Shown here: positions 1 to 54,900 of the stretch, in pieces
How positions within the stretch are numbered: position 1 is the stretch's first letter
How the letters are laid out: each line of letters begins with the position of its first letter
From: Branchiostoma floridae
Lineage: Eukaryota > Chordata > Leptocardii > Amphioxiformes > Branchiostomatidae
NCBI RefSeq assembly: GCF_000003815.2
Contig: NC_049984.1
Coordinates: forward strand, 8,919,196 to 8,983,195
DNA: 64,000 nucleotides
Reading direction: 5' to 3'
Position numbers and translations under genes: made by a program
Notes under the pieces: generated by a model
Told to the model about the DNA's origin: nothing
The model's input: the letters and a program-made list of their open reading frames with translations, nothing else
The model's database searches: none

Positions 1-360
1 TTCCTTTCCCGGTCATATCTCCCGGTTAAAAATCGCGAAAAAAATTGCCAAGCTTCCCAGAGAGGCCGGTGAAGGAGGCTACTATTGAACATACATTGGG
101 TATGCTCTACTAAACAGGGCTGAGGTTTCCACTTTTGTAGTCATGGCTTCTAACCAGCTATCAAACAATGTCAATGAGAGAATCGGCTTTACCAAAAGAA
201 AACATTTATTAAGGCGATTCTTTGATTGGCTGACAGCTGGTTAGTGGCTACCTCTTTCTCTAATATGTGTTAAGGAGCCTCAGGTTCACGTTTTTAATCG
301 GCTGTCGTGAGATATTAAGTATGAGATATGAAGGTACGTCTCAGATGTCTTGTTTTCCAG

Positions 361-1783
361 GCGACCAGATGGTGAGGGATCCTAACGTTAAGTGGCAGAT
401 TAACTTCTGTGGCAGACAGGTGACAGGAGCCACTCTTGGGATTGTGGGTATGGGAGGTATTGGGTATGCCGTAGCCCAGAGAGCTCGTGCCTTCAGGATG
501 AAGATATTCTACCACAACAGGACCAAAAGGTATGAACAGTATTATTTCTTCTATTATACATTTGTATTATAATTCATATCATTGTAGATTGTCTCAAGCA
601 TTCCTCGTTGAGTTATTAGCATTGTCAAAGTCCTAGGGAAAAATGTTGTATTTCTGGGTACCCATTGTTTTTGATCACGTTCTCCTTGTTGGATCACTTC
701 AGCTGAATTCTTTAGAAAAAAGAGAAGAATCACTACCTGCCCACCTTTTATTCAGGACACAAAATGTAATTTTTCCTATGGCTTGAGACGAAGTTTCTAT
801 TTCTTTCCTTGAGTACAATGATGTGATGTCTCAGTTTAGGGACTGCAGTAAATTAAGTAGAGGAAGGTTGTTGAAGAGCTGACCTCATTAACGATCTTCA
901 TCTACTTAACATTTTGCTGTTTCATCTCTTCAGGCCCCAGACTGAAGAAGAGGCAGTGGGTGCCCAGTACTGTGCCACCCTGGAGGAGCTCTTGCCACAG
1001 TGTGATTTTGTCATCATAGTGACTCCACTAACCGCTGAAACTAAAGGAATGTTTGGCAAAAAGCAGTTTGAACTGATGAAGCCATCTGCCACCATCATCA
1101 ACATTGCAAGGGGTTAGTTGAGTTGGCTTTCTCTTTTTGTTTGGGGGTTTGAATGATTTTATTCAGTATTCAATGCCATAATGTTAGTGTTGTTAGCTCC
1201 TTGAAAAGAGAGGTATCATGCATAATCGGTTTGTTTATTTGTCTTGGTGTGCGTCTACAGTCATGTAGTCATGTGAATATTGCAGTGTCAGCTGACATGG
1301 AAGTTATTTGATAGGATATATTGTTCTGGAAAGTTGGAAGTATATGGTTTGACTCAGGTCAAATGGTGTTGTGGTTGAGAGGCTACACCCATGCGGTTAT
1401 GTCAGGTCGTTAGGGGTAACCATGAGTAAGAGCTTGTCACTGATATTCAGACATTGATTATATCAGGCTCTTGATGTCTTCACACAGGTTCTTCGTCTTC
1501 TTTTCATCAGACCACTTTTTGTACTTTTCACACAGGTAGCATCATAGATACAGAAGCCCTGCTAGAGGCACTACAGAACAAGACCATCGCTGCAGCAGCC
1601 CTGGATGTGACAGACCCGGAGCCCCTGCCTGACGACCACCCCCTGTCCAAGCTGCAGAATGTGACCTTCACCGCACACATGGGCGGTGCCACGGTACAGA
1701 CCAGGAGCAACGCGTTCGCAATGGCTGTGCAGAACCTCCTGGATGCTTTCAGTGGTAAACCTCTGGTCAACCAAGTCATCTAA
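361..1783 (+). CDS. D-2-hydroxyacid dehydrogenase (glyoxylate/hydroxypyruvate reductase-like), 3' part
   Basis: Three terminal exons: 361-529, 934-1112 and 1536-1783 (TAA at 1781-1783). All junctions are GT-AG and phases close (AG+G, then G+GT). The product is an NAD(P)-dependent reductase of 2-oxo acids such as glyoxylate or hydroxypyruvate, usually cytosolic. Exon 1 holds the Rossmann nucleotide-binding motif (GIVGMGGIG). Exon 2 ends in the catalytic arginine segment IARG. Exon 3 has the catalytic glutamate in DPEPLP and the catalytic histidine in AHMGGAT, then the family's C-terminal helix. About 200 residues are visible, against about 320-330 for full-length members, so the N-terminal substrate-binding half lies left of the window; bases 1-360 look intronic. 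It resembles the animal group often named probable 2-ketogluconate reductase as much as GRHPR itself, so no symbol is given. The fold and active site are clear; the substrate is inferred. Confidence 0.9.
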
Positions 1784-2003
1784 TTAGGGACTAGAAACTG
1801 TGCCTTGTCACCTTGTGTTTTTGGTAACTGACCTAAAAATATTTAGGGTTTGTGATTTTTAATAATAGATTTTGGCCTCAAATGACTTATAAATTATGTT
1901 TAACAATGTAACACTGGTATTTGGAAATGCATTGAGTGTTCAATTCAATTCAATTGAGTATTACATTGAGTATATGCACCAGTAAGTAAAAAAAATGGAA
2001 TGT

Positions 2004-2103
2004 NNNNNNNNNNNNNNNNNNNNNNNNNNNNNNNNNNNNNNNNNNNNNNNNNNNNNNNNNNNNNNNNNNNNNNNNNNNNNNNNNNNNNNNNNNNNNNNNN
2101 NNN
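2004..2103. other. assembly gap, 100 N
   Basis: Exactly 100 N, a conventional size for a gap of unknown length. It lies just downstream of the reductase stop codon. Confidence 0.99.
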
Positions 2104-2400
2104 ATCTGCATAAAGTACCAATAACAATAATATATGGGTACAATTTTTTTTATTGTATCGAACATTTTGCAGTATTTTGACAATTTTGTTTGTTTTACAC
2201 ATGGATATTTCCATACAGTGCAATAACTAAAGTACACTAAACATCAACATGTGTCAAAGTTGTTATATAAATGTCTGTGGCATAAAATGCTGATACTTTT
2301 AAAGTTAACTTAACAGACTTGATACTATTATTCTACTGATAACATAGAGCCAGAATATGAATGCAACAGAAATCTCTTTGTATACCTTAGTTGGTTTATA

Positions 2401-2586
2401 TAGTCAAACCTGTACAAATGACCACCTCTACATAGGAACCACCAGGACAAACTGACCAGTTTTTGGTGGTCTCTAAGATAATTTTTCCACATGGACCAGA
2501 TTTTATCAGTCATTTTAAACGAGGACAACAACAACAACAACAACAACATCAGTCCAACAAGTGGTCTTCTTTGACAGGTTTGACTG
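2401..2586 (+). mobile_element. TA-flanked MITE, CAGTCAAACCTG family (copy A)
   Basis: Inverted ends TAGTCAAACCTGT at the left and ACAGGTTTGACTG at the right, bounded by TA on both sides. The interior mentions the same GACCACC/GGTGGTC words as the copies at 42914 and 44800 and holds a short (CAA)n run. TA duplication and these termini fit a non-autonomous Tc1/mariner (pogo/Tigger-like) element; the superfamily is inferred. Confidence 0.75.
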
Positions 2587-4914
2587 TACTTTCCAAGAAT
2601 CAATTATACATTGTCCTAATTATAAAAGCAATAACAATAAGCATGTAAGAATCACTATTCTAACCTAAACCATGCCCCTACATATAGCTTCGAGACCTTG
2701 ACCAGCATTCTGTCACAACCATATACAGTGACAGTAGAGTACTCTTAATGAACAATATGTAATGTCACATGCAATTGTGCAATTAACAGGTACATAAAAT
2801 GTTAATTGAAACTGCAAATACTACCACAATGTTTCACAAGGCACTGGACTACATAATGTGATAATGGTTGAGGCACATATACAACATCGGTAAGAACTAG
2901 TGCACCATATGGCATATGGTGTGACTGTATATGTTACAGATACCATTCTTCATCAACATCATATGTCATGTATTCTCCTATGTAGAGCCTCCCCTGTAGC
3001 TGATAGATGTACCTTGGGAGGCTCTGCTAAACCAGGCCCTTTAGATTGGTTCTTGCCATACCAGTTATACTGTATTTTACTATTACAGTCTTAGATTTAT
3101 TTTGAAAGGTTTTCTGGTTGATACCTGTCAAAGGCTATGGAAGAACAGGAAGTGGCCAGGGAAGAGATTTTAGGTGCATTTTTGTTACGTTTTAGTACCC
3201 TTCTGATACCTTTACAATACACTTAATATGCACCAACTGTTCCTCAATAGTATATTTCAAATGTTCCCATCAAATCTTTTCATAGACAACCACATCCATG
3301 AACACTAGGGACGTAATACCATACCTGTACTGCACATAACAATTCCTATACTTTAAGTATGAAAATTGCATTACATTGCTTGAAACAATCAACATATATG
3401 TCTGTCTGTACAATGCTTCCTGAATGTTACATTTACCGGCAGTACATTTTGTGTTCAGATCTTCTTTTATGCTAGTAATACAGTGTCATGTTTGTCTATC
3501 CATATGCATAGTTCTAAGTTGCCATCCTCCCATAGTGTTACTATTACAAAATATCCACATTTGTAACCAAACTACAAACTTGTCCTACAAGCATTGCAGA
3601 CAGCCAGTATTTGTCTGTATATGTATTCTGTTACTCATATCAGTCTTTTTCTAATGATGTTTAAGTAAACTCACAAGAGAGATGCTAATTATCAAATTAA
3701 GCAACAAAATCTCATCATTTCTACAATAAGGTGACATTGTTCCCACACGGATGTTACTGTAAGTTAATTTACTTTTGCAATGATTTTTTTTGTAATAGGA
3801 TGGAAAAGGATGTTTTAAAGGCGTTTTAAATATTCAGTTGAAACAAATCTGCAGTACAGTAGTCATACAAGGGAGTCACTTTTACGGTGTGATGGATTCA
3901 CAGTGGAGTGATTACGAAAAATGCAAAGATTAAACCGCAGCAAAAATGTCAAAATTTACAGTATCACTGACTACCAATGGCAATGCAGCTCTAATCTGTC
4001 AATAAACTGTTTAATATTATGGCAGGTAGAAGACTTCCGATTGGCCACCTGAGCATGTAGGAACCAGGGCCATGTTTTTATTAATCGTTTCGAGTTTTAA
4101 GCTTAGAAAAACAACAACAACGGCACATTTATGACAGCAACAGGAAATAATAGATCCTATAATCAACTACATGTACAATGTATATGCTATTTGCTAAGTA
4201 TTCAACATTTAGTTTTACTTAGAGACAAAACTTTCATAAAGTCTACATCAATATCTTGACAGTATCACAATATTGTGTAAAGATTTGCATCCATACATCA
4301 TTATTTAAAGGGGACAAACCAGTGACAAGACAGTGTAGAAATGGAAAAAACACAATTGCACTGAAAAGGAAACAACAGACTTCCACAGGAAAGCTGACAG
4401 AAGCCAAAAGTTATAAGATACAGAAGAAAAGTCACACAAATAGTTAACTTGAAGAACAAAAATTGCACTGACAATCCCTCCCCCAACGTTCATCCTATTC
4501 TGTTTGAAATGTAACCACCATGTCTGAACTACGATCTATGCAACAATCCTTTAGAAATTCGATATGATAATTTCTTGAGTTGCTTTACGTAAGTAACTAA
4601 TAGGGAGCAAGTGGCAAATATCATTAATAACTAACACTACGAATACACAGAGGAAAGAGTTTAACATTGGTTACATATATAGTCAACATCATAAAGCATT
4701 AACATGAAATAGCATCACATTGCAAACACTCTTCAAAACTTGGCAGATGGTGGGAACAACAGAAAAAGTTGCAAATAAGACAGAATGGTTGTAGGGGGGT
4801 TGGGGTAATCTTTTTTAAGGCTTACAAAAAATGTTGTGTTTCCTGATACTGGGAACAAAACCAGCCTGTCTCCTAATTCTAGCAAAGATGTCAGGTCTTC
4901 ACAGACCACGTCCA

Positions 4915-5080
4915 TACCAGGATTCACAAGTTAGGATCCACTCAGGCATGAGACTGATCCCGACTTGATCCACCTACTGAGGTGGATCCAAACATTTACC
5001 CCCTCTGATCAGACTGTTTCACACCAGGTCTGCAAATCTGGATCCAAGGCTGAGTGAATCCCGTTCTGCAAATCCTGGTA
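4915..5080. mobile_element. small inverted-repeat element (TACCAGGATT ends)
   Basis: Left end TACCAGGATTCACA and right end TGCAAATCCTGGTA are inverted copies with about two mismatches. The interior is rich in GGATCC-like words. A diverged relative may lie at 7277-7388. This looks like a MITE; no target duplication is certain. Confidence 0.5.
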
Positions 5081-5207
5081 TGAAAGGTCATAGTGTAGGT
5101 CCTATACTATGATAATATGACATATTTGCTGAAATAAACATGCTTGAGAAAACATATTCAAGATAATGATGACCCTGGGGTTGGACAATTTCCTATTTCA
5201 ACGGATA

Positions 5208-8200
5208 TCAGAGCTGAGCAACATCCCCTTTCCCCTCCAGCCGTGCCTCCCTCTCTCTCTCCCTCATCTTCCTCAGGGCCAGTTTCTTCCAGAACAGCCC
5301 TTCCTGCCTCTTCCCCAGCTTCATGACAGGGTACGGCTCGGTGCGTATGTGCCTGATGTTGTAAGGGCAGTTCCTGAGGTGTTCAGCCATGGAGGGGGAG
5401 TCTTCATAGTACCAGGACTTTCACAGGGTGAAGGCAGTGCTGAAGTACCATTTTCTGGGAAGTAACAAGAAGTTTTTGGGTGAATTTTCTAAAGCCCGAA
5501 CCCCTAACCTGTTTTAATAACAGTTGATTTCTAAAACAGGTCCCANNNNNNNNNNNNNNNNNNNNNNNNNNNNNNNNNNNNNNNNNNNNNNNNNNNNNNN
5601 NNNNNNNNNNNNNNNNNNNNNNNNNNNNNNNNNNNNNNNNNNNNNATGGAGTATACCATGCTACTTTCAAGAAGGTGGTCTTAACCTGCATGTTTCTTTG
5701 AGACCTAAATAACTACGTACGTACCAAAATTCATACAAATCCATCAAAAGGATCTTGAGCTATGTGGCAGAGAAGACAGATGTCATCTACAGTATTTACA
5801 TTTTCAATACGCAAGCTCCTAGTACTAGCAGAACAAGTCTAGGTCCTTGGCTACATGTGGTTTCTAATGAATATCTACATGATTGCGACGTTAAGATTGC
5901 TATATTTTCCCTCATTGCATAGTCGTGGTAGTCACAACTGTATGCCCAGCATCTCCCTACCTGGTGAGAGATTTGCCATGTGAAGAGGGTCTTGTATCGC
6001 CTCTTCTCCCACTGCTGCACAACAATGCCCCTGTCCTCCAGGATGCTGTAGCAAACCTACAGAGTACAAAGGATAGAAATGCCACAATCTTATCAGAACT
6101 ATCTTTGCTACATGTACCAGTATCACAAGGCTCCAAGTTCATTTTGGGGAATGAGTCCGGTCCTGTCCGGTCTGACATGTCTGCTCCATCCAAAAAAGTT
6201 AACATGACAGTTTGCTAGTACAACATCAATGGTGCACTGTCAAAATCACATGCTTCTCGAGTCTGGATCTGATATTCCAAATTGTTAACAAGCAATACAA
6301 CAAAGGTTTTATTATTTTTTTCTGACACTCAAATCTCAAGAATATGTAGTATATACACATTAATTATGTACAATAGTAGGATAGTACTCTTATGTTTGTG
6401 ACCCTGCAAAATATATTATCATCAAGGACTTAGGTACACACATATTTGAAAAATTAGTTACACAGCTCCAATTTTGGGTGCACAAAAGGGCATATACACC
6501 TAGTATTTCGAGTCCTGAACTTAGTATAACAGTCCTTACATACAGCGAGGCTTATACAAATTGTGTAAATGGAATGTGGAGTCTGCCACTTAACAGACGT
6601 TAACTGCTGTGCTTCCTGTCTTACAACATTCTTCTGCATCAAAGCACACAATCCACAGTCAAACATGTCCCACATGCCAAACAGCCTGTCCCTGTAGGTC
6701 TTCATTACTCACTATACACAAGACAAGTCTAGAGTCAACTATTCTCATGCCAACATTCCTCAGTCTCTTACAGCAAGGAGCTAAAAGCATACTTCAAATC
6801 TAGTCATGTGGAGCAACAAAAAAGTGAATGCAACAACATCAAAATCTGTTTTGGTCTTGGGTTTTTGGTAATAACTCTGATGCACAACAGTATGTTAACA
6901 GAGTTTGCAAGCAATATTTCGAACTTGCTAAAAATGTTACCCATTCAACAATTCGTTGCCTTGTGGCAAGATACCAATTTGGGTGTTTTTGTAAAATGAG
7001 ATGTTGCTGTACAAGTTTTTAGAATGGGAATTCTTTGGCAGCAAGCCACTGTGGAGTTTTGTGAATGTGAGCAAAAACAAATTAGGTATTCAGCTGTCTC
7101 TAAGGGTACTCTCCATGCAGTAAACTTCTAAATGAACATCTTGTTCAATGTTAAACTCAAATACAGAAATGAAATGAATGGGGGCAAAACTATTATTCCA
7201 GATTTGTGCAGGGTTGAAGAGCAAAGGACTAGATAGGGAATGTGGTCAATGACCACATGCCAATGATGCCATTGAATACCATGATTCACAAATCAGGACT
7301 CACCCAGGGCACAGGATTGATCCCAGTTCACAAAGCCTGGTAAGAACGGGGTCCAAGGGGGGGATACAGATTCAGACTCTTCATACTAGGATTTACGAGC
7401 TTGAATCAAACCTGTGCCTACAGCAAGATGAATTCCAGTTCATAAATCTACTCCTATCTTTACATGTAGGTACATTGTACATTTTGTACAAGGAAAAATG
7501 ACTGATAACTTGTGCTCTTACCTCTCTTGTCAGCTTGGAGACCATGGAAAAGTTGCACAGACTGAAGCTGTCCAGACACAGAGCTATGTGCTGTAGAATC
7601 TCAAACGGCAGAGTGCTCAGTCTATCCCTCCACTTCCGCCTCTTCCTCCTGTCTCCTGTTTCAACCTTCCCGACAACCCCGCAGCTGTTGTCATCTGATT
7701 CTGAATCTGATGGTTCAGGTGACTCTATTACACTCTCATCTATGAGAGGCCTGATACCAAAACTTTCCAGATGCTGGTGGAAGATGATGGTGCCATTCTT
7801 CTTGTGGGGGTACAGCCTACGACGGGAGTGGGTGCAGCCATAAATGGCGAGGGGACACCGCTGTTCTATCCAGCCGTTCAAGCCGCCGTGAATGTCGTTG
7901 TGTACGTTCTGGAAGTGTGATGGATACTCGTCTCTCCTAAACTCCTGTCCGCATACGAATGTGTACATGGTGCGCGGCTTGTTCTGATACCTTGTGATAG
8001 ACTCGAGCACGAGGTCTAGAACTAGTGTGTTAGAGTGGTCTACTGCCGGTGCTGATCCCATGGGCCCAACCTGTGACGTTGTGGCAAACACTGCGGTAGG
8101 GATCTGTACAGTCTGCACGGCAGCCTCTCTTTTAAATTCAGTCACTTTCCTGCTGTAAACATTGAGAGGATAGATGTCGAACCAGGCCTCTAACATTACG

Positions 8201-11087
8201 CTCAGGTCATCCTCAGACACCTTACTGTCTGAGAAGTTCAAAGAGTTGCTCACGGCTTTGGTTCCGACAATCTCATCATCGAGCTCCAGGTCCTCAGTAC
8301 CCACACACTTGGACTGCTGGGTCCTGGGATCCAAGAAGCGCATGTCCAAGACGTGACTCGGTGTAAAAGTGGATGGCGGTCTGAACATGCTTACAGAACG
8401 ATGAGCGATTCCTTGTCGATCGTACCAGCACGAAAATACAGGTTCGTGTTCTTCTACTGAATCTTCTTCTGTGCTGGGAGGCTCTTCGCAATTACTTCTG
8501 ATGTCAACTTTGAGCTTACCATCCGCCCCCACCTCTTCTGTTATCACGACATTTTCTGCCGCTTTTTGTGTATCGTGTAGTAACTGCGTGTAATAGTCTA
8601 CCTTTTGTGCCACGTCCTGCAACTCGTCAGCCACATCATCTGGACTGGGTTCCCTTTCTGTCCCACTGACTTCCCCGTTGGACAAGTCTTCATGTATTGA
8701 GGCAGCAGCAGCACCATGTAGTTCCTCTGTATCCTCATTGACTTTTTCCTGTCTACTAGTGTTACCACCTGCAGAAGCAGCATTATTCAGAGTATCCAAA
8801 GCCGCTGACAGGCTCTGGGTCATCTGTAGTGTAGCCTTGTACAGTTTGCTGGAGGCACTTTTGGAGCTTTCATTCTCGGGAAAGGGCGGTGGCATCGGAG
8901 GGGATTGCTTCTCCCAACCGTTCATGACGCTCGAGTTTACTACTAAACCCTCGGCACTTGTTGTGTTCTCTTCCTTTGCAAAGCTACCCATTTCCTCTGA
9001 AGGCGTCGAAGCCTCTGAGTCTGACACAGACTGTTGAATAATGCTGCTCATCAGCGCCAGCCTGGCCCGGTCAGACGCCTTCATGGTCTCCATGAGTATC
9101 CTCTGATCTCTTAGAGCCAGCGCAATGTCCAGCTGGTCCTTGTACACCTGAGCATCGGCTTTGACAATAGGAACGTGGGATTGTCTCTCCACGGAGAACA
9201 CCGGCCAGCGATTCCACTCCATGGTACAGCGCACAACGCTGGCCGGACAGTGGGCCAGGTGCCTGGCATGCTGTCCTCGAGGCATCCATTTTGGACAGCC
9301 GTTGACAGCATTGATACATGGTGCCTTCTCATTGGGGCAGATAAGTCCATGCTCCGACAGCTTGCACGCGTGAAAGCGAGCGCCGCAGTCCGCCGGGCAT
9401 GCCTGCATCTCACAGGAGACATCCAACTCCGGCTTGACGAAACAGCTCCGCCTGTAGCACTGGGTACAGTGGCTATGGGGCACCAGCAAGTAGTCTTCAC
9501 CTTCTTGAGATTCTGAACAGTGACACAATAACAGCATCATCAGTCATCACATTAACGTCCTGTTACATACATGTAAGACAACATTCTTTACTGATATCAA
9601 AGCTAATATTGATACAGTCAAATCTGTGTTATTGGTTACATATGCATAGCAACCAGCTGGCCATTGTGGTCACTCCCTTAAATTTTTCCCATTGACCTTA
9701 GCTTTAGGGATGTAGATAGAAGAAATCTCTCTGACATTGACATGGTCTGTGGATGACAAAGGGTCAAATCAAAAAACATATCACTACAGTACTAGTACCC
9801 TCATTGTCACACCATATTACTATGGCATGGATACTAGACCCCACCTGGTTATAAAACATTTACAACAAACTACAAAATTATAGAATGTCTTTTGCTTTAA
9901 ACAGTTCACAGTATGAAGTAAAGTGTTAAAGTATAACCATACATTTGATCAAATGTACATGTTTTAAGTACATCAGTTGCATTTCAAAATGTAAGTTTAA
10001 TTTTGCCTGATGGCTACTTTTATGGTCTCCACAATACCATGCCATGAAATTTCATGTATCTAGTTGGAGAGCTCCAGTACTTACAAGCTCAAACTCAATT
10101 TGTAAACAAAGTGATAGCCTAACAAACAAGAGGTTGAAAGGTCAATCCTTTCTTTTTATAACATCCATTGCATTGATACACCCGATCCCCCCGATCTCGT
10201 AAGTTAAGCAACGTGCAGTCCAGTCAGTACATTGTGTACTTAGATGGGAGACCACCAAGGAACCCTGGATGCTGTAGTCTGACTAAGAGTAAGAATTCAC
10301 GAACTCGTCTTTCGGACGGGACATAAAACGAAGGTCTGGGAGTTCAAGGAGGTGTCCTGAGCATGTAAATCAGCCTCATCACTCAAACATTGGGCACCTA
10401 CTGGCTACAAATAATACACCAGATGTATTATTATTATTATTTTTCAATCTTCTGGTCATTTAATTTATCCTTGATCAGGATTCAGGAATGAAAATATGTA
10501 AATCTGTTGTAACTCAGGGATACGGCTAGGGTTGGAGACACAAGACATTATTCACAAAGAACATCCTGTCAAGGCTAAAAAAATTCTTACTGACAGGAAC
10601 ATCCTGTCAATAGCCTCGGACATTTTTATACCATGTTTTCAATTTCAACATGACAGCGCTGGACTTTGTCCAACTTCATTGATTGCAAATCGACAACAGT
10701 AGGTGCTAACATTCTTCAGGGCACCAATGTTATACAACAAGCCAGGCTCCACTCTGATTCATAAAACTTGATCCCTTGCTGCGCCATAATTACGCAACGT
10801 CTACCAGTCAAAACAAAAATATGACAGCAATGTCGGCCCGTCGCACGACCTACAAGCTTTGCACGTCTCTGTCAGAAAGACCTCGAAACCGGCGCGACAT
10901 TTGTACCAAAATTCTCTCCTTGTCACGGCAATAATTGATAACCTGGTCAATTCTAAACGACTATCAGACATTTCTAGATACGACAGTTGATACAGATAAG
11001 AACTCGTCCTCCAGACAAATCTAATAATGCGGTACAAAAATCTGCTTTTCGTCAAATTCCATCAATCATACCTTCTACGGCAGCCAT
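5208..11087 (-). CDS. FBXO30: F-box only protein 30/40-like ubiquitin ligase adaptor, with disrupted last exon
   Basis: Exons on the minus strand: 11087-11072 (ATG, codes MAAVE plus one base), 9512-7522, 6056-5961 and 5454-5208. The first two introns join in phase. The N-terminus carries a Cys/His-rich TRAF-type zinc finger (about residues 20-100, ending in CTMEWNRWPV, a hallmark of FBXO30/40). A long acidic, probably disordered middle follows, then the F-box (LPFEILQHIALCLDSFSLC, about residues 625-665). The C-terminal part (QQWEKRRY, TWQIS, WYFSTAF, SMAEHLRNCPYN) lines up with vertebrate FBXO30. Such proteins link substrates to SKP1-CUL1 ligases; human FBXO30 is 745 aa. Oddities: the last exon needs a phase that exon 3 does not supply (one extra A in AAAA at 5451-5454), and an in-frame TGA lies at 5421-5423, although both flanks are conserved in one frame. 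The 100-N gap 90 bases away makes sequence error plausible. FBXO40 is the paralogous alternative. Confidence 0.88.
5546..5645. other. assembly gap, 100 N
   Basis: Exactly 100 N, inside the last intron of the F-box gene. It lies about 90 bases from the acceptor of the disrupted terminal exon. Confidence 0.99.
7277..7388. mobile_element. possible diverged copy of the TACCAGGATT element
   Basis: Starts TACCATGATTCACA and ends near TACTAGGATTTA, resembling the ends of the 4915 element, with related GGACTCA and GGGGTCC words inside. It sits in an intron of the F-box gene. The match is weak. Confidence 0.35.
10157..10443 (+). mobile_element. 5S-rRNA-derived SINE (copy 1)
   Basis: The head resembles eukaryotic 5S rRNA: CCCGATC, GATCTCGTAAGTTAAGCAACG (A-box region), TAGATGGGAGACC (intermediate element/C-box) and GGATGCTGTAG near the 5S end. 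An unrelated body follows (ACCTACTGGCT, ATACACCAGATG) with a TTATTATTATT tail, the structure of a SINE3-type element transcribed by RNA polymerase III. It lies in intron 1 of the F-box gene, on the opposite strand to that gene. A second, interrupted copy is at 39599. Confidence 0.8.
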
Positions 11088-17852: not shown

Positions 17853-20800
17853 ATGTCAGCTGACTCCCTGCCCGTCCCCCTGACCTGGATCCTACTGGCC
17901 ATACTGCCGGTCCTGTTCTACATGTGAGTTAGTTAAGGTTATATCTCCAAGCAGATGTTGGGATCGACAATTGTTAACTTTTCTCCTAAGGGTGCTCCAA
18001 TGACGACTGTCAGAAAAACTGATAAGAAAATGTGACGACTGTCCATGCCAGGCAATGTCTGCTTTACATGTTGTTGTTTTTTCACCAGTAATGATGAGTT
18101 GACCGTGACAAAGGTCCTCTGGTGATTTCTTGTTGTTGTAGCTCACAGCTTGTAAATGTGAGATGAGACATAGTCCTGGTGTGTTTATCAACAGATACGC
18201 AGTGCGACCCCTTCAGCTGTTTAAGAAGATGGGTGTGCCAGGTCCCGCCCCGTGGCCAATCATTGGGAACCTGCTGGATCACATGAGAGACGTGAGTCTG
18301 AATTAAAGTTAGTGCTTCTACAATAATGTCATATCAATGAATCTGTATTTATTTATTTCTTGTTGAGTTGGTTGAGTGGCTTTGATCAATAGAAAAAAAT
18401 AAAAATTGGTAAAAAAAGGTTACAGATCTAAAAATAGCATTTACAGAGAAAACTTGAGATCAGGAAAAAAATGTAATTGGGGTATGAAATATTGTTTGTG
18501 TGCCAACTGCAGTTTTAGCCTCACTCTATTATACCAGTTTAAAGACCTACTTGACAGGCTTCATATTCTTCTTTCTTTGGAGGTCATTATCTTCAAGTAC
18601 AAGTGGTGCATTCAAAAGATTTAACTCATCAACATTTTGAGACACGGTTGTTCAAGTAATGATTTTAACTTTTCTCAAAGGGCATATGGAACATTGAGAC
18701 TCAAGTTGCACGAACACGGAAATATGGCACTGTGTATGGGTAAGTGCATCATCATCAGTATTTCAGGTACTTTGAGGTAGCCTACTACCTCAGTGTATCC
18801 TATGCCATTCTCTATACACTGTCAGGTGTGAACCTGCTCTTAAGAGTCAGAAACAATCACTACAAGCCAAATATTTTAATCTACTAAGTACATTAAAATT
18901 GGAAAGTGGTGCGTGATTCAAATTTGATTCATTGGCAACTCATCCATGCTACTACATGTACAATGTATCTACAAAACTGAATACATTGTATGATATCTAA
19001 TGAAACACAGACTATAAGGCCTAAAACCTTTCCATGTAGCATTCATTTGTTTTATGCAGTCAAACCTGAATTCAGCAACCCCTCATTGGACTGAGGAAAA
19101 TTTTTATTGAGGACAGGTGGTTGCTCAGGACAGGGTGGGGTCACCTAGGACTGGTCGGTTTTGACGTGGCTCTTTAACATCATTTGCTTCATTTTCAGGA
19201 TGTTTGGTGGAGGATTCACGGGTGTCTTCATAACAGACCCAGAAATGTTGCAGGATGTGTTTGTGAAGAAATTCCACAGTTTTACAAACCGCCAGGTGTG
19301 TATATGTACCACTTCCTCATGACTGGGTGTAGTGCTGCTTTAGTCTTGAATACATTCCAAGTCAGGTGTTTATGCAAGAAAATGTCCAGATAATGCCAAT
19401 GGATGATTCATGATTGCTGTTAGAGCAACCAGTAAGCTGATACCATCCCAAGACCAGGAGTTCTGACAAGTCATTTCAGAATTAGATAATGAGTCATCGA
19501 TAATAGCATATAAATTTATTGCAAATTCTTGCCCGAGGGCTAATTGCAGGTGACAGAGAAAAAAAAAGACAATAAATGGTAAGCACTAAAACAGTACTAG
19601 TATAGTAAGCGACTACTGATTAATTAAAGATACTCAAGAGTTGGTTGTTTTCTAGAGCTAATCATAGAGTATAATTGATGTCAAATGTCGAGTATTGCAG
19701 GTTCCTCTTGATAAAATGATGATTTCATACAACCTTGAATGGAATGGTATACCCAAAGATTAATCTGCTTTCCAAGCACAGTGAACAATTAGTCTTTTTT
19801 AGACTGACTGAGAAAAAAGCTATATACATGTACGTGCAACGCAAGTTTGAAGTCCCGAAAGAAAAAGCAGTAACTGTTGAATATTATACAGATACAGATG
19901 TAGGTGTTCTTTGTGTTAGTCTAAGAACCTTAAGATCAACGTAAAACCTGTGAGTCGCATGCTGATGCAGCTATTTGTGTTCTTTGTGTTAGACTAAGAA
20001 CCTTAAGATCAACATAAAACCTGTGAGTCGCATGCTGATGCAGCTATTTGTGTTCTTTGTGTTAGACTAAGAACTTTCAGATCAACGTAAAACCTGTGAG
20101 TCGCATGCTGATGCAGCTATTTGTGTTCTTTGTGTTAGACTAAGGACCTTCAGATCAACGTAAAACCTGTGAGTCGCATGCTGATGCAGCTATTTGTGTT
20201 CTTTGTGTTAGACTAAGAACTTTCAGATCAACGTAAAACCTGTGAGTCGCATGCTGATGCAGCTATTTGTGTTCTTTGTGTTAGACTAAGGACCTTCAGA
20301 TCAACGTAAGACCTGCGGGTCGCATGCTGACATCGCTGTTTGACGAGGACTGGAAGAGCGTACGGAGCACCGTCAGTCCGGCCTTCAGTGGGGGCAAGCT
20401 AAAACAGGTAAGACATAAACAGGAGAACATGAACACTCAACAGGCTGTGTCAGGACCTGTTTGACTATAGTGGGAAGGACCTGGACTGGTTGTGGTGCTC
20501 AACAGTATGATAATGAACAGGCTATTTGTTTCATGAAGTCAATAACAATTGAGGCTGGCAATTTGATCAGACAGCTTTATATGCCATTGTATACTTATTA
20601 CTGCCTAGTACGTACAAATGTATCTGCTATGCATGTGATGATACCTTTAGTCGTATCTTTAAACTTTGGCAAAGAGAGGTACAATTGAGGTTAATCATTA
20701 GTCTTTATGACTGCAATGTAACTTGCAAGCTACAATGACATGAGTGTTGTTGACAGATGGCAGGACCAATGAACAGCTGTGCTGATCTGCTGATAGAGAA

Positions 20801-37900: not shown

Positions 37901-38585
37901 GAGGTCTGCATTGTGACGAAACATACGTCTGGATCTAACCAGATACTCCTCCCAGAATTCCTTGTCGCTGCACCATTTCCCCTCGTCCAGCAAGTCCCCC
38001 AGCACGAAAACGGCATGAGGCTGGTGGACGGACACGGCCGTCTGGAACGACCTCTCCATCTGCCACTCCCTGCAAACGAATGCACTCCATAAAACACACT
38101 ATCTGGTCTGTCATAACTGCGAGATGGATAAATGTCCTCATGTAGGTACATGTATGTGTGTATTTATAAAGTACGTAGGCCAAGGGGTTCACGGAAAAGC
38201 CTGGGCCCAGGAGTTGGACTGGCTAGCCTGAAAGACTACCTTTTCTGGGCCCCAAGGCTATGCATGGGGTTTGGCCTGCAGCTGAAGTTTTTTAAAAATA
38301 AAAACTGGGTCAATTACAATCCCAGCTGTGGGTGGAATGGGGCTGGGATGGGGAAAAGTAACAGTTGATCATATTGCTGGGCTTGCAATGAATAACTCAA
38401 CCAAGACTGTAAGAAAACAATCATAAACTAAATTCCAACTATACAACAGAAAATGCAAAATAAAGAATACTAGGATGGGGCAGGAAATGATAGCGAATAA
38501 CATCAAAGTCAAAACAGATGTCTCACACTTTGAGTGAGTGTGTATTGACCATTGTGCATTGTGTGTAAATGATGCATGCATGCGC

Positions 38586-38616
<31 letters not shown>

Positions 38617-39260
38617 TACATGTAGAACTTATAGTGCTGTCAGTGCTGTTCCTTTCTTATGTTCTTATTAAGGAAATTCCACTGGGGGCCCAAACCCGTG
38701 CATTTAGGGCTTCAGAAAGTGTAGCATGACAACCCCCATGCATACCCTTGGGGCCCAAAAAGGGTAGGCTGGCTACCCTGCTGGGCCCAGGCTTTTCCGT
38801 AAACCCTAGGCCAAGTACAGTTATGGCATGAACTGATGACACTCATGAGATACAATGTGGTGTTTCAGCTAATGAAAGGGTATGTCTCCCCAGAAGGGGC
38901 AGTATTAACCCTGTCATATGCATTAGCATACATGTACAAGGTTAACCACATGATCACTTCATCTCAGTTCCTTTACCTTCTGAGTCGATCAAACCAGTGC
39001 CCTAGCCTACTACCAAGGAGGTGGGTGTCAGCAAGAAACAGCACCCTGATAGGCTGATGTGGATTGGTGCTGTCCCGTCCTTTCTGAGCTGCAACAGAGG
39101 CAGGTCCTTCAGGTTCAAGATGTGGCCAGGAACACTGCCATATGGCTATGTAGTAGATGACATATTCGCTATACAAGAACACACTTGCCAGGCCCACACA
39201 GAGGATGGCCAAATGTCTCCTGCTCAGCATCATCCACCTGACCTGTCGCCACAACAGCAT
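34965..39260 (-). CDS. MPPE1: metallophosphoesterase 1 (MPPE1/PGAP5), complete
   Basis: Eight exons: 39260-38977, 38069-37854, 37375-37295, 36894-36789, 36492-36409, 36136-36014, 35640-35500, 35123-34965 (TAG). Sum 1194 nt, 397 aa; human MPPE1 is 396. An N-terminal signal anchor ([20 protein letters not shown], about residues 19-38) and a C-terminal hydrophobic stretch ([17 protein letters not shown]) fit a two-pass ER/Golgi protein. Metal-binding motifs in order: [36 protein letters not shown]-like [12 protein letters not shown], and LTAHIHHG. In mammals PGAP5 removes an ethanolamine-phosphate side group from the second mannose of GPI anchors so that GPI-anchored proteins can leave the ER. 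Oddities: the usual GHTH motif reads AHIH here, keeping both histidines but losing the glycine, and the intron after exon 6 has a GC donor (AAAAG|GCAAGA, 36014/36013). Confidence 0.96.
38174..38816. mobile_element. fold-back element with about 90-bp inverted arms
   Basis: The left arm (38174-38270: GGAAAAGCCTGGGCCCAG ... CTGGGCCCCAAGG ... ATGCATGGGG) recurs inverted in the right arm (38733-38816). The arms enclose about 460 bases including a (TG)n run. GTAC-like bases flank both ends. It lies in MPPE1 intron 1. Confidence 0.75.
38586..38613 (+). repeat. (TG)n microsatellite
   Basis: Fourteen uninterrupted TG dinucleotides, preceded by GCATGCGCG, which may favour Z-DNA. Located between the inverted arms of the 38174-38816 element. 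Confidence 0.95.
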
Positions 39261-39598: not shown

Positions 39599-41245
39599 GT
39601 GTTACTACGGCCGCGTGGCGCGTTGGTACACCCGATCCCTCGATCTCGGAAGTTAAGCAACGCGACGGTCCGGACAGTGCTTGGATGGGGGACCAACCAA
39701 GGACGTCCGGATTGCTGTAGCCTCACGAAGTTTCCACGAAATCGTCTTCCGGGAGGGACGTAAAACGGGGGCAAAACTACGAAAGCTTCACCCTCCTTTT
39801 TCAGCACTGGAAACCAGTGCTGAAGATGGCTTCAGCACTGGAAACCGAGTGCTGAATGTTCGTCAGCACTGGAAAACCAGTGCTGACGCGCTCTCAGCAC
39901 TGGAGACGCCGGCTTCAGCACTGGAAACCGAGTGCTGAATGTTCGTCAGCACTGGAAACTGAGTGCTGACGCTCTCAGCACTGGAAACGCCGGCTTCAGC
40001 ACTGGAAACCGAGTGCTGAGAGAGCGGGAGACTAGACTCTGACATACTAGTATACAGTATTATAAATTTGGAGTTACGACACGTCCTTTGCTCGACTCAA
40101 GGACGTTATATAACGTCCTTGCTCGACTAAAACGTAAGATTGCTGAATTATAAACGTCACCTATCGTTACATTCTGCTCTATAACACCTCTATAACTCTA
40201 TAACAGTGTTCATTTGTCGATTACCTTCGGGGAAAATACTCGCGATCGTCGTGACGCTTTCTTTACGTGGGCGGTAATAATAATAAAGTTGTTTGCAATC
40301 CCGTTCTAATGATATCCATTCCTTTTAATTACACAAAACAAAATACATTTCAATTACACAAAACAACACAAATTCAGGCTTTTTTGCATCTGTATCTATC
40401 TTACGTTATATAGCCGGTATAACCGCCGTTCGGCGTAACACACCAGCTAAAACTGCATAAACTTGAAAAATCATCTTTATTAGTATCGTATATTGTACCG
40501 CTTTCAGTACTTACATACACCAAGTTACACATTAAATTGAATAGCACAACCAAAAGTTTAACTTTATTTTTAATCAGTAATAATTGCGTCAAGTACCGCT
40601 CTCAGCACTAGGACACTCCAGCACACCAGTGCTCGAAAGACTTCGGCACTGGTTTCAAGAACGTTCCAGTGCTGAAAAGATGTCAGCACTCGTTTTCCTG
40701 TGCTGAAGATTTCTCAGCACTGGTGTTCCAGTGCTGAAGTGCCCCTGAACACTGGAAAATCGAGTGCGGAAGGCGAAGCTTTTGTATATCAGCACTCGGT
40801 TCCAGTGCTGACGGCGGTTTCAGCACTGGGTAACCAGTGCTGAGTGACCTTTGACGTGACCCGTCGCCGCCTGGGCCGCGAGTTCAGCACTGGAGCCGAG
40901 TGCTGACGAACATTCAGCACTGGAAAACGTCTTTTCAGCACTGGAAAACGAGTGCTGACGTCTTTTCAGCACTGGAAAACGAGTGCTGAGGGAGCTTCAG
41001 CACTGGAGAAAGGCCGATCAGCACTGGAAAACGAGTGCTGAACATTCTTCAGCACTGGGCGCCGAGTGCTGAGGCCGATTCGACCATTGTTTTCAGCACT
41101 CGGTTCCAGTGCGGAAGGTGAAGCTTTCGTAGACTTGCAAAACGGGGGTCCCGTGCTCGAGGAGGTGCCTCGACCACGTTAAACAGCCTCATTACTCATA
41201 CTGGGTACCTACTGGCTGGCAAAATACACCAGATGATTATAGAAT
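39599..41245 (+). mobile_element. 5S-rRNA-derived SINE (copy 2), split by a 1.37-kb insertion
   Basis: The 5S-like head at about 39605-39722 (GGTACACCCGATCCCTCGATC, AAGTTAAGCAACGCG, TTGGATGGGGGACC, ATTGCTGTAGCC) continues to TAAAACGGGG at 39770. The body resumes at 41139 (AAAACGGGGGTCCCGTG, CTCGAGGAGGTGCC, ACCTACTGGCTGGC, ATACACCAGATG). Joined, it parallels the copy at 10157. Confidence 0.85.
39771..41138. mobile_element. fold-back transposon carrying arrays of 20-24 bp palindromes
   Basis: The insertion is flanked by the 9-bp repeat AAAACGGGG (39762-39770 and 41139-41147). Its ends, GCAAAACTACGAAAGCTTCA at the left and the inverse of GCAAGTCTACGAAAGCTTCA at the right, form a roughly 26-bp terminal inverted repeat with three mismatches. 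A 9-bp duplication suits a Mutator-like transposase. Inside the left end (39801-40022) are about six palindromes of the form TCAGCACTGG-loop-CGAGTGCTGA plus half-sites. The right part (40597-41118) has about a dozen more, several as half-sites. Between them lies some 570 bases of AT-rich DNA with no long reading frame. A degenerate copy of the right terminus (GCGGAAGGCGAAGCTTTTGT) occurs internally near 40766. Non-autonomous by appearance; I do not recognise the family. Confidence 0.85.
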
Positions 41246-42554
41246 TTGAGTGACTTCTGAACTTTTAGTTATCGTGCTCGGTATCCGGCTGAAAACGCCG
41301 ACAGTTAGAACAGAAAAGTGACGAGGGCAAATGTTCGTGATGTCATAGATATCAAACGTCCTATACAACAATATCAATTTTAGCGATGTTTAATATGTAT
41401 AAAGATAAACAAAAACATTTACCATACGATACACACGACGTTTCCTCCAGCTGATAGAGGTGAAAGGTCAAAACTTACTTTGGAGGAGGATCATGGGATG
41501 GAATAGTCTACTTTTTCTAGGTGTTATATATTTAATAGTTTCAGTGAAAGAAATAATTTCGTGGCATTTAGATATTATATTTGTACTACAAAGCCATAAA
41601 TATATGTTAGCTTGTATGTATTTTTATTAATAAAGAAAATTTAGCCATTAAAGTTTTTATTTTCTTCCGCCAGTTTATCGCGACATCCCTGTTTTTGAAT
41701 GTACCACTAAGGGGGTGTGTTTTTAATCTTTCAGCAGTTCCTCAGTCCTTGGGGAGATCAGTCAGGCGCGGGGGTGCGGGATATGCTGTCGACTTCCTTC
41801 TTCTTCCTTCGTTCTCCAGCAAGGATCAAGTAGATCTCGGAACTGTGTCGTCAGGAAGACGATGGTAGGAACTGAGCAGGAAGACTGCGGTGGGCTGTTG
41901 TGATTTCGGTGAGGATTAGAGCAATTTTTCCTGCGATAAAACCAGTGCACTGGTAGCGGGGTCATATCGATGTCGTGTCACGGCATGTCATGGGAAATTA
42001 TCCAGATGTGCTCATGGGGAAGCTTGAGGGGCTGACTTCACAACAACAAGCACCGTTTTCAAGTTTGCTAGTTTTCACGTTTCCCTACCGTTCAGTTGTT
42101 ACCGTATTATCTGTTCAGATCATTTTTGTACAAGGTCGATAAAGAACAGGTTGTATTTACTGTTTAACACTCTACTGTTTAGGTGTTGTGCTTTCTGTTT
42201 TAATATTGATGTTTACTGTAATGAATAGTGACAGTTATCCTGCTCCCTGCCTGCCCAGTCTAAGGCTGTGGGTTCTTCATGTCTTTTTTTCAAGGCTTCT
42301 ATTCCACCGTATTATTTTATCGGGTAGTGAACCGCTGTTTCCTGACATGAATGTTGATGTATATTATTTATATATTCCCTTTTATCTTGTTGCAGTAACT
42401 TTCTATAGAGGTGAACCCACTATCCACCAATCTATACTTGGAAATTGCATTTACATATCATAATAGGTAGCACTTAAAACGATTCAAACCTAACTTGCTT
42501 TGTACAGTTGATGTATTCAGATTTGTCACAAAGTACATGTGGTTTCATGCTTAA

Positions 42555-51997: not shown

Positions 51998-54900
51998 ATG
52001 AGCGCGTCAGACATGGCATCCAAACTGTCAGGCATGTCCTTTGCCTTCGGCCTGCGGACACAATTTGCAGAGCTGGTCAAGCGGACAAAGGATCAGATGG
52101 ATGAATCAGAGGAGTCGGAACAGCCGCCGAGTGAAGAGACAGCCGAGTCTGCCACCACAGAGGAGAAGCAAGAAGCAACTGCCTCTCCTGCAAGTCCAGA
52201 ACAGCAGGCTGCTGAGAAAGCCGAACCGACAGGGGATAACATTTCTCAGCATAAGTCTCCTGAGGAGAAGCCCAGAAGTGTTCGGGATATGATCGCTCGT
52301 TTCCAAGGAGGAGACAGTGGTGGCAGTTCTCCACGTAAAAGTCGCCCCAAGGAGCCCAGCAAACCAAGCCCTGAGCCACCCGCGAAGGACAAGCAGAGAG
52401 AAGTGGTGAAGAAAGAAGGAGAGAAGCCAAAGGAGGAAAAGATAGCAACTAAAGCAGGAGTTACTGCTGTTGCTTCAAAACCTCCTGCCACAGAACAGAC
52501 TTCCACAGTTGGTTCCAAACCAACAGAACATGTAGAACAAGCCAGTGAGAAGCCTGCAATGAATTTAGTAACTAGAGCAATTAGAGGTATTGAGCAGAAA
52601 GCAGAGACAGTTCTAAACAAACAAAAGGACACTCCAGTAGTAGTGCCAGTTACCAAAGAAAAGGAGGTGGCACCTGTTGTAACAGAGAGCAAACCAAAAG
52701 AAGCTCCTCCAGTTGAGCCAAGCAACAGTAAGACTGAAAAGCAGACTGAGCCAGTGGAAGAAACATCTACAGTTGAAGTAAGAGGAAAAGATCCGGACAT
52801 TGCGAAGCCTGTACAAAAAGTACCAGCACATAGAAAGCAGCGCAGTGTTGAGAAACAAACTCGACAAGAAAGGAACCAGGAGGTAAAGAAGGAGACCCCT
52901 GTAGCTCTGGTTTCACAAGAAAGTCCACCTGTGCAGCAAGTGCAGGCTGATCAGCCTCCTCCCTCAGAAGATCAAGGCAAAGGTGCTGTGCCACAGAAAG
53001 CTCCTCCAGAAGCAGGCAAAGGTGGAAAGGCTGAAGTGCCGTCTCATCTTGCCGTGAGAAAGGCCAAGAAAATCATTCCTCGTGATCGCAGCAGTAGTTA
53101 TGACCCGGAGTCAGATCACAGCGGAGATGGAACATCGAGTGATGAGGGTCCCGCGAGCAGGGCTGGCAGCGTCATCATGTCATCCCCAGAGCCATCGCCT
53201 GATGAGGAGGAGATGGGCTGTAAGACTTTCATGGAGATGTTTGTCAGTAATGTCTTCAATGGCAGGTAAGTCTTCTGTTGGCTTCAGCAGTAGCACGTTA
53301 TGCATTAGTAACTGTCGGGAGAAGAGCAGATTAGCGTGTAAGTGGAAAGTATTCCCCCACTGTGACACGGTAATGTACCGTTTATCAGGCATCATTCCTC
53401 AGGCATGTGCTTCTGTAGGAGGTAATCTCTGAACAGCTAATTAGAACTTACCTTACTGTAACTAAAGTGGAGAGTGGGGGACTGGGTGGAGTCATTTAGC
53501 AAGCTGGTTTGGGAAGCATTAGGGGCTATTTGAAAGTCCTGATGGGTTGTGTTCCATTGAGGTGGTTAAAAGGTTAGATAGGTGCGAATTTGATGCCCAC
53601 AAACCTCTGGAAACCAGGCTGCTCAATTGCAACTATACAAGCTATTCAACAGGTGAAGAAGAGAAACACTGAATAGCACAACTGTTTTTGCATCATGAAT
53701 CACTTTTTTCCAAATCGAAATCAAAGTGATGCCAGATCTTAAATCTTGAACATAGACCATGAATTTTGTGTTACATTTGTATCAGTGACATCAATGTGAA
53801 ATGCATGCTTCTTAAAGTTTCTTACTGTCCTTATACATTGATCTGGAGATAAATCTGGACTGTAAAGAAACAGATCAACACTAACCCTACTGACCTTAGT
53901 GCTGAATCAACATTGTCACTCCTATCCCTAGTTCTGAATCATCAGACATGATTGTCCCGGTCCTTAGTGCTGAAACCACTGATCTTACTGTACCTCTCCT
54001 TAGTGTTGAAACAACACTGATGTTACTGTCTCTGTCCTTAGTGCTGAAACAACACTGATGTTACTGTCCCTGTCCTTAGTGCTGAAACAACACTGATGTT
54101 ACTGTCTCTGTCCTTAGGGCTGAAACAACACTGATCTTACTTTCCCTGTCCTTAGTGCTGAAACAACACTGATGTTACTGTCCCTGTCCTTAGTGCTGAA
54201 ACAACACTGATGTTACTGTCTCTGTCCTTAGTGCTGAAACAACACTGATGTTACCATCCCTGTCACTAGTGCTGAAACAACACTGATGTTACTGTCCCTG
54301 TCCTTAGTGCTGAAACAACACCGATCTTACTGTCCCTGTCCTTAGTGCTAAAACAACACTGATGTTACTGTCCCTGTCCTTATTGCTGAAACATCACTGA
54401 TGTTACTGTCCCTGTTGTTAGTGCTGAAATAACACTGATGTTACTGTCTCTGTCCTTAGTGCTGGAACGACACTGAAGTTACTGTCCCTGTCACTAGTGC
54501 TGAAATAACACTGATGTTACTGTCCCTGTTGTTAGTGCTGGAACAACACTGATGTTACTGTCCCTGTCACTAGTGCTGAAATAACACTGATGTTGCTGTC
54601 CCTGTTGTTAGTGCTGAAACAACACTGATGTTACTGTCCCTGTCCTTATTGCTGAAACAGCACTGATGTTACTGTCCCTGTCACTAGTGCTGAAATAACA
54701 CTGAAGTTACTGTCCCTGTCCTTATTGCTGAAACAGCACTGAAGTTACTGTCCCTGCCATTAGTGCTGAACCCACTGACACTGCTTTCCCTGTCCTTAGT
54801 GCTGAATCACATTCAAATCATTTGTACCATCCATCTAGAAAATGATCAATGATGCATGTCCTGCTGGGAAAATGGGGAATCAAATATTACTAAGGAGTTT

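Follow-up and report, generated by a model that had tools for sequence, protein, structure and literature searches.

A palindrome-array element of Branchiostoma floridae, probably an unusual form of a known foldback-type transposon

Foldback elements with repeated ends

By their published descriptions, which are cited throughout from excerpts of the papers concerned, the nearest known systems to the element reported here are Muta1, Tm1 and the FB elements of Drosophila. Muta1, an active MULE of Aedes aegypti, has target site duplications (TSDs) of 8-9 bp, is called a type 2 foldback element and has a short terminal motif, inward of which lies an array of short subterminal repeats separated by short spacers, and it has many non-autonomous derivatives in which the number of repeats is variable (PMC5225508). 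It differs in its 145-bp terminal inverted repeats (TIRs), its nine 12-bp tandem repeats with 3-4-bp spacers and its transposase; the excerpts of its description include neither an array of separate dyads nor a composite right side, though the terminal motif is itself a 10-bp imperfect palindrome (PMC5225508). Tm1, a Mutator/foldback element of root-knot nematodes, has TSDs of 8-10 bp (mostly 9), composite ends in which a ~14-bp motif recurs a variable number of times, and members which are mostly non-coding, with possible recombinant elements; unlike the present element its motif is arranged in tandem and not in dyads, its outer 7-bp motifs are asymmetric, and a copy with a Phantom-type transposase is known (PMC3169594). 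The FB elements share a 9-bp TSD, blocks of 27-31-bp repeats around a middle region and alternative ends, and differ in having conserved end sequences of 467-479 bp and repeat blocks which are opposite on the two sides, with no dyad unit in the excerpted description; they are called P-element-related, so a likeness to FB is no proof of a MULE (PMC7642927).

Three further systems are relevant. Rehavkus resembles the present element in its 9-bp TSD and its TIRs from 26 bp upwards; it has a minisatellite before the 3' TIR, where the present element has arrays at both ends, and differs in encoding a PHD-finger transposase and in having been described from arthropods and annelids (PMC6446971). Tetris was assigned to Mutator by its authors from its TSDs and earlier suggestions (PMC4079207). 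Galileo, of the P superfamily, has foldback-like ends in which the THAP domain of its transposase binds sites within the tandem repeats of the long TIRs (EMSA for two repeat sites, a footprint for the outer site), and differs in the 1.2-kb TIR of Galileo-G and in its THAP-type P-superfamily transposase (PMC3688188).

By analogy with these descriptions, the length of the TSD and the repeated ends of the present element point to the MULE-type foldback elements Muta1, Tm1, Tetris and Rehavkus. The initial annotation of this DNA knew of no comparable dyad array. This holds only in part: Muta1, Tm1 and Drosophila FB do have arrays of short repeats with 8-10-bp TSDs, whilst the excerpted descriptions of these elements mention neither dyads arrayed as separate units, nor orphan half-sites spaced at helical pitch, nor a right end of composite build. 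A search of mainly open literature for foldback transposons in amphioxus returned no paper, and as the subscription literature lay largely outside it, an earlier description is possible.

The insertion and its target

The window, meaning the whole stretch of DNA analysed, comprises 64,000 nucleotides of B. floridae contig NC_049984.1 (positions 8,919,196 to 8,983,195), and all coordinates are given within it. A 1368-bp insertion at 39771-41138 interrupts a 5S-rRNA-derived SINE, and its parts and surroundings are as follows.

39603-39770, plus strand: target SINE as far as the left TSD (included), with its 5S-rRNA-derived head and its body
39762-39770, plus strand: left 9-bp TSD, AAAACGGGG, identical to the right TSD
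39771-39796, plus strand: left TIR, 26 nt, 88% complementary to 41113-41138
40020-40600, plus strand: A+T-rich non-coding middle, G+C 0.36
41113-41138, minus strand: right TIR, 26 nt, imperfect partner of the left TIR
41139-41147, plus strand: right 9-bp TSD, AAAACGGGG, identical to the left TSD
41148-41250 (end approximate), plus strand: distal part of the interrupted SINE, 79.5% to 10344-10431
10170-10494, plus strand: second SINE copy, representing the empty site, from blastn and alignment to the joined flanks

The left flank matches 5S rRNA over 39603-39723 (Rfam RF00001, 48.3 bits), and the SINE to the left of the insertion matches the homologous SINE at 10170-10330 at 73%. In the review table that lists BflSINE1 of Branchiostoma as tRNA-derived, a 5S-type SINE is not named (PMC3747384). 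When the flanks of the element were joined and then aligned to the SINE copy at 10170-10494, this copy proved to be uninterrupted at the insertion point and to hold a single target, AAAACGAAG, which has 7 of its 9 bases in common with the TSD. The whole window was also scanned for 16-nt TIRs (no more than 3 mismatches, span 100-6000) bordered by exact 9-bp direct repeats; two loci were returned, the present element and 38176-38815, whereas 20 block-shuffled windows gave no locus. The TSDs, the ends and the uninterrupted SINE copy therefore confirm that 39771-41138 is a true insertion with a 9-bp target duplication. The initial annotation had proposed a transposon with 9-bp target duplications and inverted ends of roughly 26 bp, lying inside a 5S-SINE, and is borne out on all of these points.

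The second locus of the scan is a short element at 38185-38806 without blastn similarity to the palindrome-array element. It lies between exact 9-bp repeats, TAGGCCAAG, at 38176-38184 and 38807-38815, and its 29-nt ends, which are 93% complementary and continue into inverted arms to ~95 bp (76.8%), hold the palindrome CTGGGCCCAG. The 9-bp target of the main element is situated between short inverted flanks, GGGAC/GTCCC (39747-39761, 41148-41162), and that of the 38185-38806 element between GTAC/GTAC (38161-38175, 38816-38830), where the right copy takes in the last TSD base; these flanks are offset by ~2 bases each, were read by eye in two cases only and may be due to chance.

No stop-to-stop frame overlapping the element is longer than 93 aa, and the one of this length starts outside it, in the SINE flank; the element is therefore taken to be non-autonomous. 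Its middle contains a perfect 24-bp palindrome, CAAGGACGTTATATAACGTCCTTG, at 40098-40121, the longest perfect palindrome that a scan of the window at even lengths of 20-40 bp detected. In the window as a whole 51 frames of at least 100 aa are listed, and six of the nine frames tried against Pfam scored above the family cut-off, with families of animal type (zf-TRAF_2 with F-box, 2-hydroxyacid dehydrogenase, P450, SPRY and B-box). Two other tandem arrays were observed in the window: 5.8 copies of a 73-bp unit with 96% matches at 19904-20330, and a minisatellite at 53953-54806 of ~22.6 copies of a 38-bp unit, the consensus of which includes the half-site 8-mer AGTGCTGA. A link between this minisatellite and the element was rejected, blastn of the element against the window giving no match there at E 0.01. 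Dada, which has a 6-7-bp TSD inside a small RNA gene (PMC3706591), was likewise rejected as a relative, the TSD here being 9 bp long and lying ~40 bp beyond the 5S-like part.

Arrangement and phasing of the palindromes

The palindromes occur in blocks, referred to below as L and R1 to R4.

39801-40019, plus strand: left array L, six dyads and two orphan half-sites (39894, 39975)
40602-40770, minus strand: right block R1, five dyads, diverged; inverted homologue of L
40760-40786, minus strand: internal degenerate copy of the right terminus, 27 nt, 89% to 41105-41131
40789-40843, minus strand: right block R2, two dyads; weakly inverted
40884-41072, plus strand: right block R3, five dyads and two orphan half-sites (40914, 40997); mostly direct homologue of L
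41093-41115, minus strand: R4, terminal dyad adjoining the right end

With up to one mismatch, the half-site TCAGCACTSG is found 56 times in the window against an expected 6.7, and 40 of these sites are inside the element. When each start is counted once, dyads whose outer 8 bases match are similarly concentrated, with 27 of the window's 33 inside the element, whilst 100 block shuffles of the element gave a mean of 0.06 and a maximum of 1. The arrays in two clusters are thus real, as first described; the count of about 18 units is replaced by 19 dyads and four orphan half-sites of TCAGCACTSG. The loop measures 3-5 bp in 17 of the 19 dyads, and the dyads at 40602 and 40643 in R1 are diverged, with gaps of 13-14 bp between their halves. 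L contains an 83-bp higher-order repeat and 111-bp internal copies which are 94.6% identical. The arrays have a G+C content of 0.55 and 0.54, against 0.36 in the middle and 0.41 in the window. TRF reported a period of 31 in three rows, and the element thus has, as in Drosophila FB, tandem units of ~31 bp together with a 9-bp TSD. The 9-bp TSD and a TIR within 26-400 bp agree with Rehavkus; as to its minisatellite before the 3' TIR, an array precedes the right TIR here and another follows the left one.

The blocks do not all face the same way. Local alignment scores favour an inverted orientation for L against R1 (97 inverted, 55 direct) and R1 against R3 (83 and 43), are near even for L against R2 (63 inverted, 53 direct), and favour a direct orientation for L against R3 (157 direct, 52 inverted); aligned to its own reverse complement, L scores 64. 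L and R1 thus form inverted arms as in a foldback element, yet R3, the best match to L, is direct, and for the right cluster in its entirety a simple inverted-arm foldback was rejected. The polarity of position 9 (G then C) is found in four of the six dyads of L, the other two being symmetric, and in all five of R3, and is reversed (C then G) at 40683, 40789 and 41093; the dyad at 40746, within R1, does not conform to the inverted reading. Nor is R3 a perfectly direct copy of L, since its first spacer, CGAACAT, corresponds to an L spacer in reverse complement. The degenerate terminus which closes R1 carries the TTCCGCACT variant, in common with the true right end. From the block orientations and this internal terminus, the right side therefore appears to consist of one right end, then an array of left type and then another right end, as in a composite formed in tandem or by nesting, in which at least one segment was flipped locally. 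The internal terminus and growth by duplication had both been put forward in the initial annotation and are upheld, R3 being mostly a direct copy of L. Its suggestion that the two clusters pair with each other is weakened by the direct match of the best right block, and it had overlooked the reversal of orientation in the right cluster, the phasing, and the fact that the stems are mostly imperfect at one position.

At 21, 31 and 41 bp, the spacing of the half-sites is roughly in step with the DNA helix. On the plus strand the spacings are 31, 31, 31, 21, 31, 29 and 21 bp in L, and on the right side 41, 40, 31, 32, 43, 31 and 64 bp followed by 30, 21, 31, 31, 21, 31 and 44 bp; of these, 29, 43, 44 and 64 fit the helix less well. 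Loop and spacer partly offset each other: a spacer of 8 bp accompanies the 3-bp loops at 39801 and 40789, one of 7 bp accompanies most 4-bp loops, and in both cases the pitch stays at 31. The exceptions are 39946 (spacer 5, pitch 29), 40714 (spacer 8, pitch 32) and 40884 (loop 3, spacer 7, pitch 30). Orphan half-sites reduce the pitch by 10 bp, about one helical turn. The best resultant lengths are 0.94 at 10.25 bp for L, 0.85 at 10.40 for R1 and R2 together and 0.98 at 10.35 for R3, descriptive values without a null which are inflated by few points and a free period (picked within 8-14), the best period varying among blocks. For the 10 distinct spacings, a uniform null over 18-79 bp attained the observed value in 1.0% of draws when any period from 9.5 to 11.5 was allowed, a figure to be read with the caution that tandem copies are not independent.

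Half-site, hairpin and transposase

Positions 1-8 of the 19 dyads show eight one-sided departures and no two-sided ones, and position 9 is mismatched in 14 of the 19, counts which are biased by the dyads having been paired by hand from the list of motif matches; the orphan half-sites are perfect in four of four, though without a partner. The block alignments, which escape the bias of motif selection and hand pairing only in part, give the same picture. In L against R3 (39831-39972 and 40934-41075) the core has 71 matches, no mismatch and one gap, and the sequence outside it 49 matches, 18 mismatches and seven gaps (p = 6e-7). When uniform mutation was simulated at 13% substitution, 3% deletion and 3% insertion and the L-R3 core realigned, none of 2000 runs was free of mismatches (mean 8.2, minimum 1). 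The difference is weaker in L against R1, with 74 matches, five mismatches and eight gaps in the core and 50, 17 and 22 outside it (p = 0.002). Given the one-sided changes, the mismatches at position 9, the intact orphans and the unchanged core, it therefore seems to be the half-site that is conserved, and the constraint appears to act on this and not on a hairpin, as expected of a site bound by protein on duplex DNA.

This bears on two readings in which the arrays are not binding sites. Extruded or single-stranded stems could matter in themselves, for example in excision, replication or RNA, and the loops of 3-5 bp would suit this, as would the folding of the left array, which is far better than that of shuffles both as DNA (z -10.5) and, with the SINE flank, as RNA (z -10.8). 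Such folding is strong because any set of inverted sites folds well; the dyads show no compensatory changes, position 9 breaks most stems and the half-sites which lack a partner are intact. We consider a hairpin or cruciform function very improbable, and the emphasis first placed on hairpin extrusion is weakened accordingly, whilst the suggestion made at the same time that the dyads are protein-binding sites is the better supported of the two. Alternatively, slippage and unequal exchange may have amplified a chance palindrome in the manner of a satellite, without function. Tandem duplication is clear from the nearly identical 111-bp copies, the difference between core and spacer in the two recent copies inside L falls short of significance (p = 0.053), and foldback repeats are able to seed satellites, as described in the excerpts on Tetris (PMC4079207). 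Against this, half-sites have been kept whilst spacers diverged in L-R3 and, less strongly, in L-R1, and spacings which differ from one another remain near whole turns; passive expansion seems to us quite unlikely.

Our preferred reading, held with moderate confidence, is that of a non-autonomous foldback-like transposon, most likely a MULE, whose arrays are phased putative docking sites for transposase dimers. The element would have entered the 5S-derived SINE by cut-and-paste, producing the 9-bp duplication, with its short inverted ends as the putative points of transposase cutting. Each half-site, TCAGCACT(G/C)G, would be recognised by the DNA-binding domain of a transposase encoded elsewhere in the genome; two inverted half-sites, usually 3-5 bp apart, would load one dimer, and units at roughly whole helical turns would line up consecutive dimers along a single face of the DNA, after which the two ends could assemble into a multimeric synapse. 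The left array may have expanded by tandem duplication of an 83-bp block of two dyads and one half-site, and a copy of it, together with a second right terminus, may have come to lie in the right side through rearrangement, whether tandem or nested. Comparable use of repeated sites is described in excerpts on other transposons: the BED domains of Hermes bind co-operatively to a quasi-palindrome, and the phasing of sites is proposed by the authors to be crucial (PMC10368747), and piggyBac ends have a palindromic site bound by two domains, whilst inner sites of piggyBat restrict activity (PMC11707139). By analogy with the latter the arrays could either raise or restrain activity.

The ligand of the dyads may instead be a host transcription factor or chromatin protein which aids or silences the element, and phased dyads would, judging from their spacing, suit any dimeric DNA-binding protein; the position of the arrays at both ends, adjoining the termini in the manner of subterminal transposase sites, argues against this, and we regard it as unlikely. 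The superfamily is a separate matter. TSDs are 7-8 bp long in the P superfamily, with 7 bp in Galileo, and 8 bp in hAT; the 9 bp found here are outside the P range. An exact 9-bp TSD does fit the MULE range of 8-11 bp (PMC6446971) and Tm1, and TIRs are present (26 nt, 88%), although 26 bp would be a short TIR for a MULE and TSDs of 9 bp also occur outside this superfamily. In favour of a foldback element of some other superfamily (hAT, Merlin, P-like as in Galileo, or one not yet described), several superfamilies may give rise to a foldback build (PMC4079207), the element has no known transposase, and MULEs are scarcely found in chordates, the excerpted survey giving little evidence of them there and leaving an earlier report from B. 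floridae unconfirmed (PMC6446971). Such an origin is a minority possibility in our view, if one to be kept in mind. Database patterns yielded no relative: the dyad pattern had no match in viral_contigs and genome_contigs, nor the TIR pattern in viral_contigs, these being collections other than of animal genomes and hence no guide to copy number. A shorter TIR pattern matched 16 times in genome_contigs, in records named as bacteria or archaea; exact half-sites numbered none at 14 of these loci, one at one and two at another, and the matches are taken as chance despite only ~7 being expected by our own estimate.

This element, probably an unusual form of a known foldback type, bears on the question of why foldback transposons have long, internally repeated ends. 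A single copy already separates a conserved half-site from free loop and spacer, at spacings near whole helical turns, which leads to a sharp prediction on the ligand and provides a ready substrate for a binding test. It is conceivable, though rather doubtful, that the element represents a distinct lineage of animal DNA transposons, the ends of which are recognised via helically phased arrays of palindromic dimer sites. If that were true, a ladder of dimers on one face of the DNA, and not a single terminal repeat, would define the transposon end, copies of the array would be swappable between ends in either orientation because the units are nearly symmetric, and ends would evolve by the gain and loss of whole turns, in steps of 10, 21, 31 and 83 bp.
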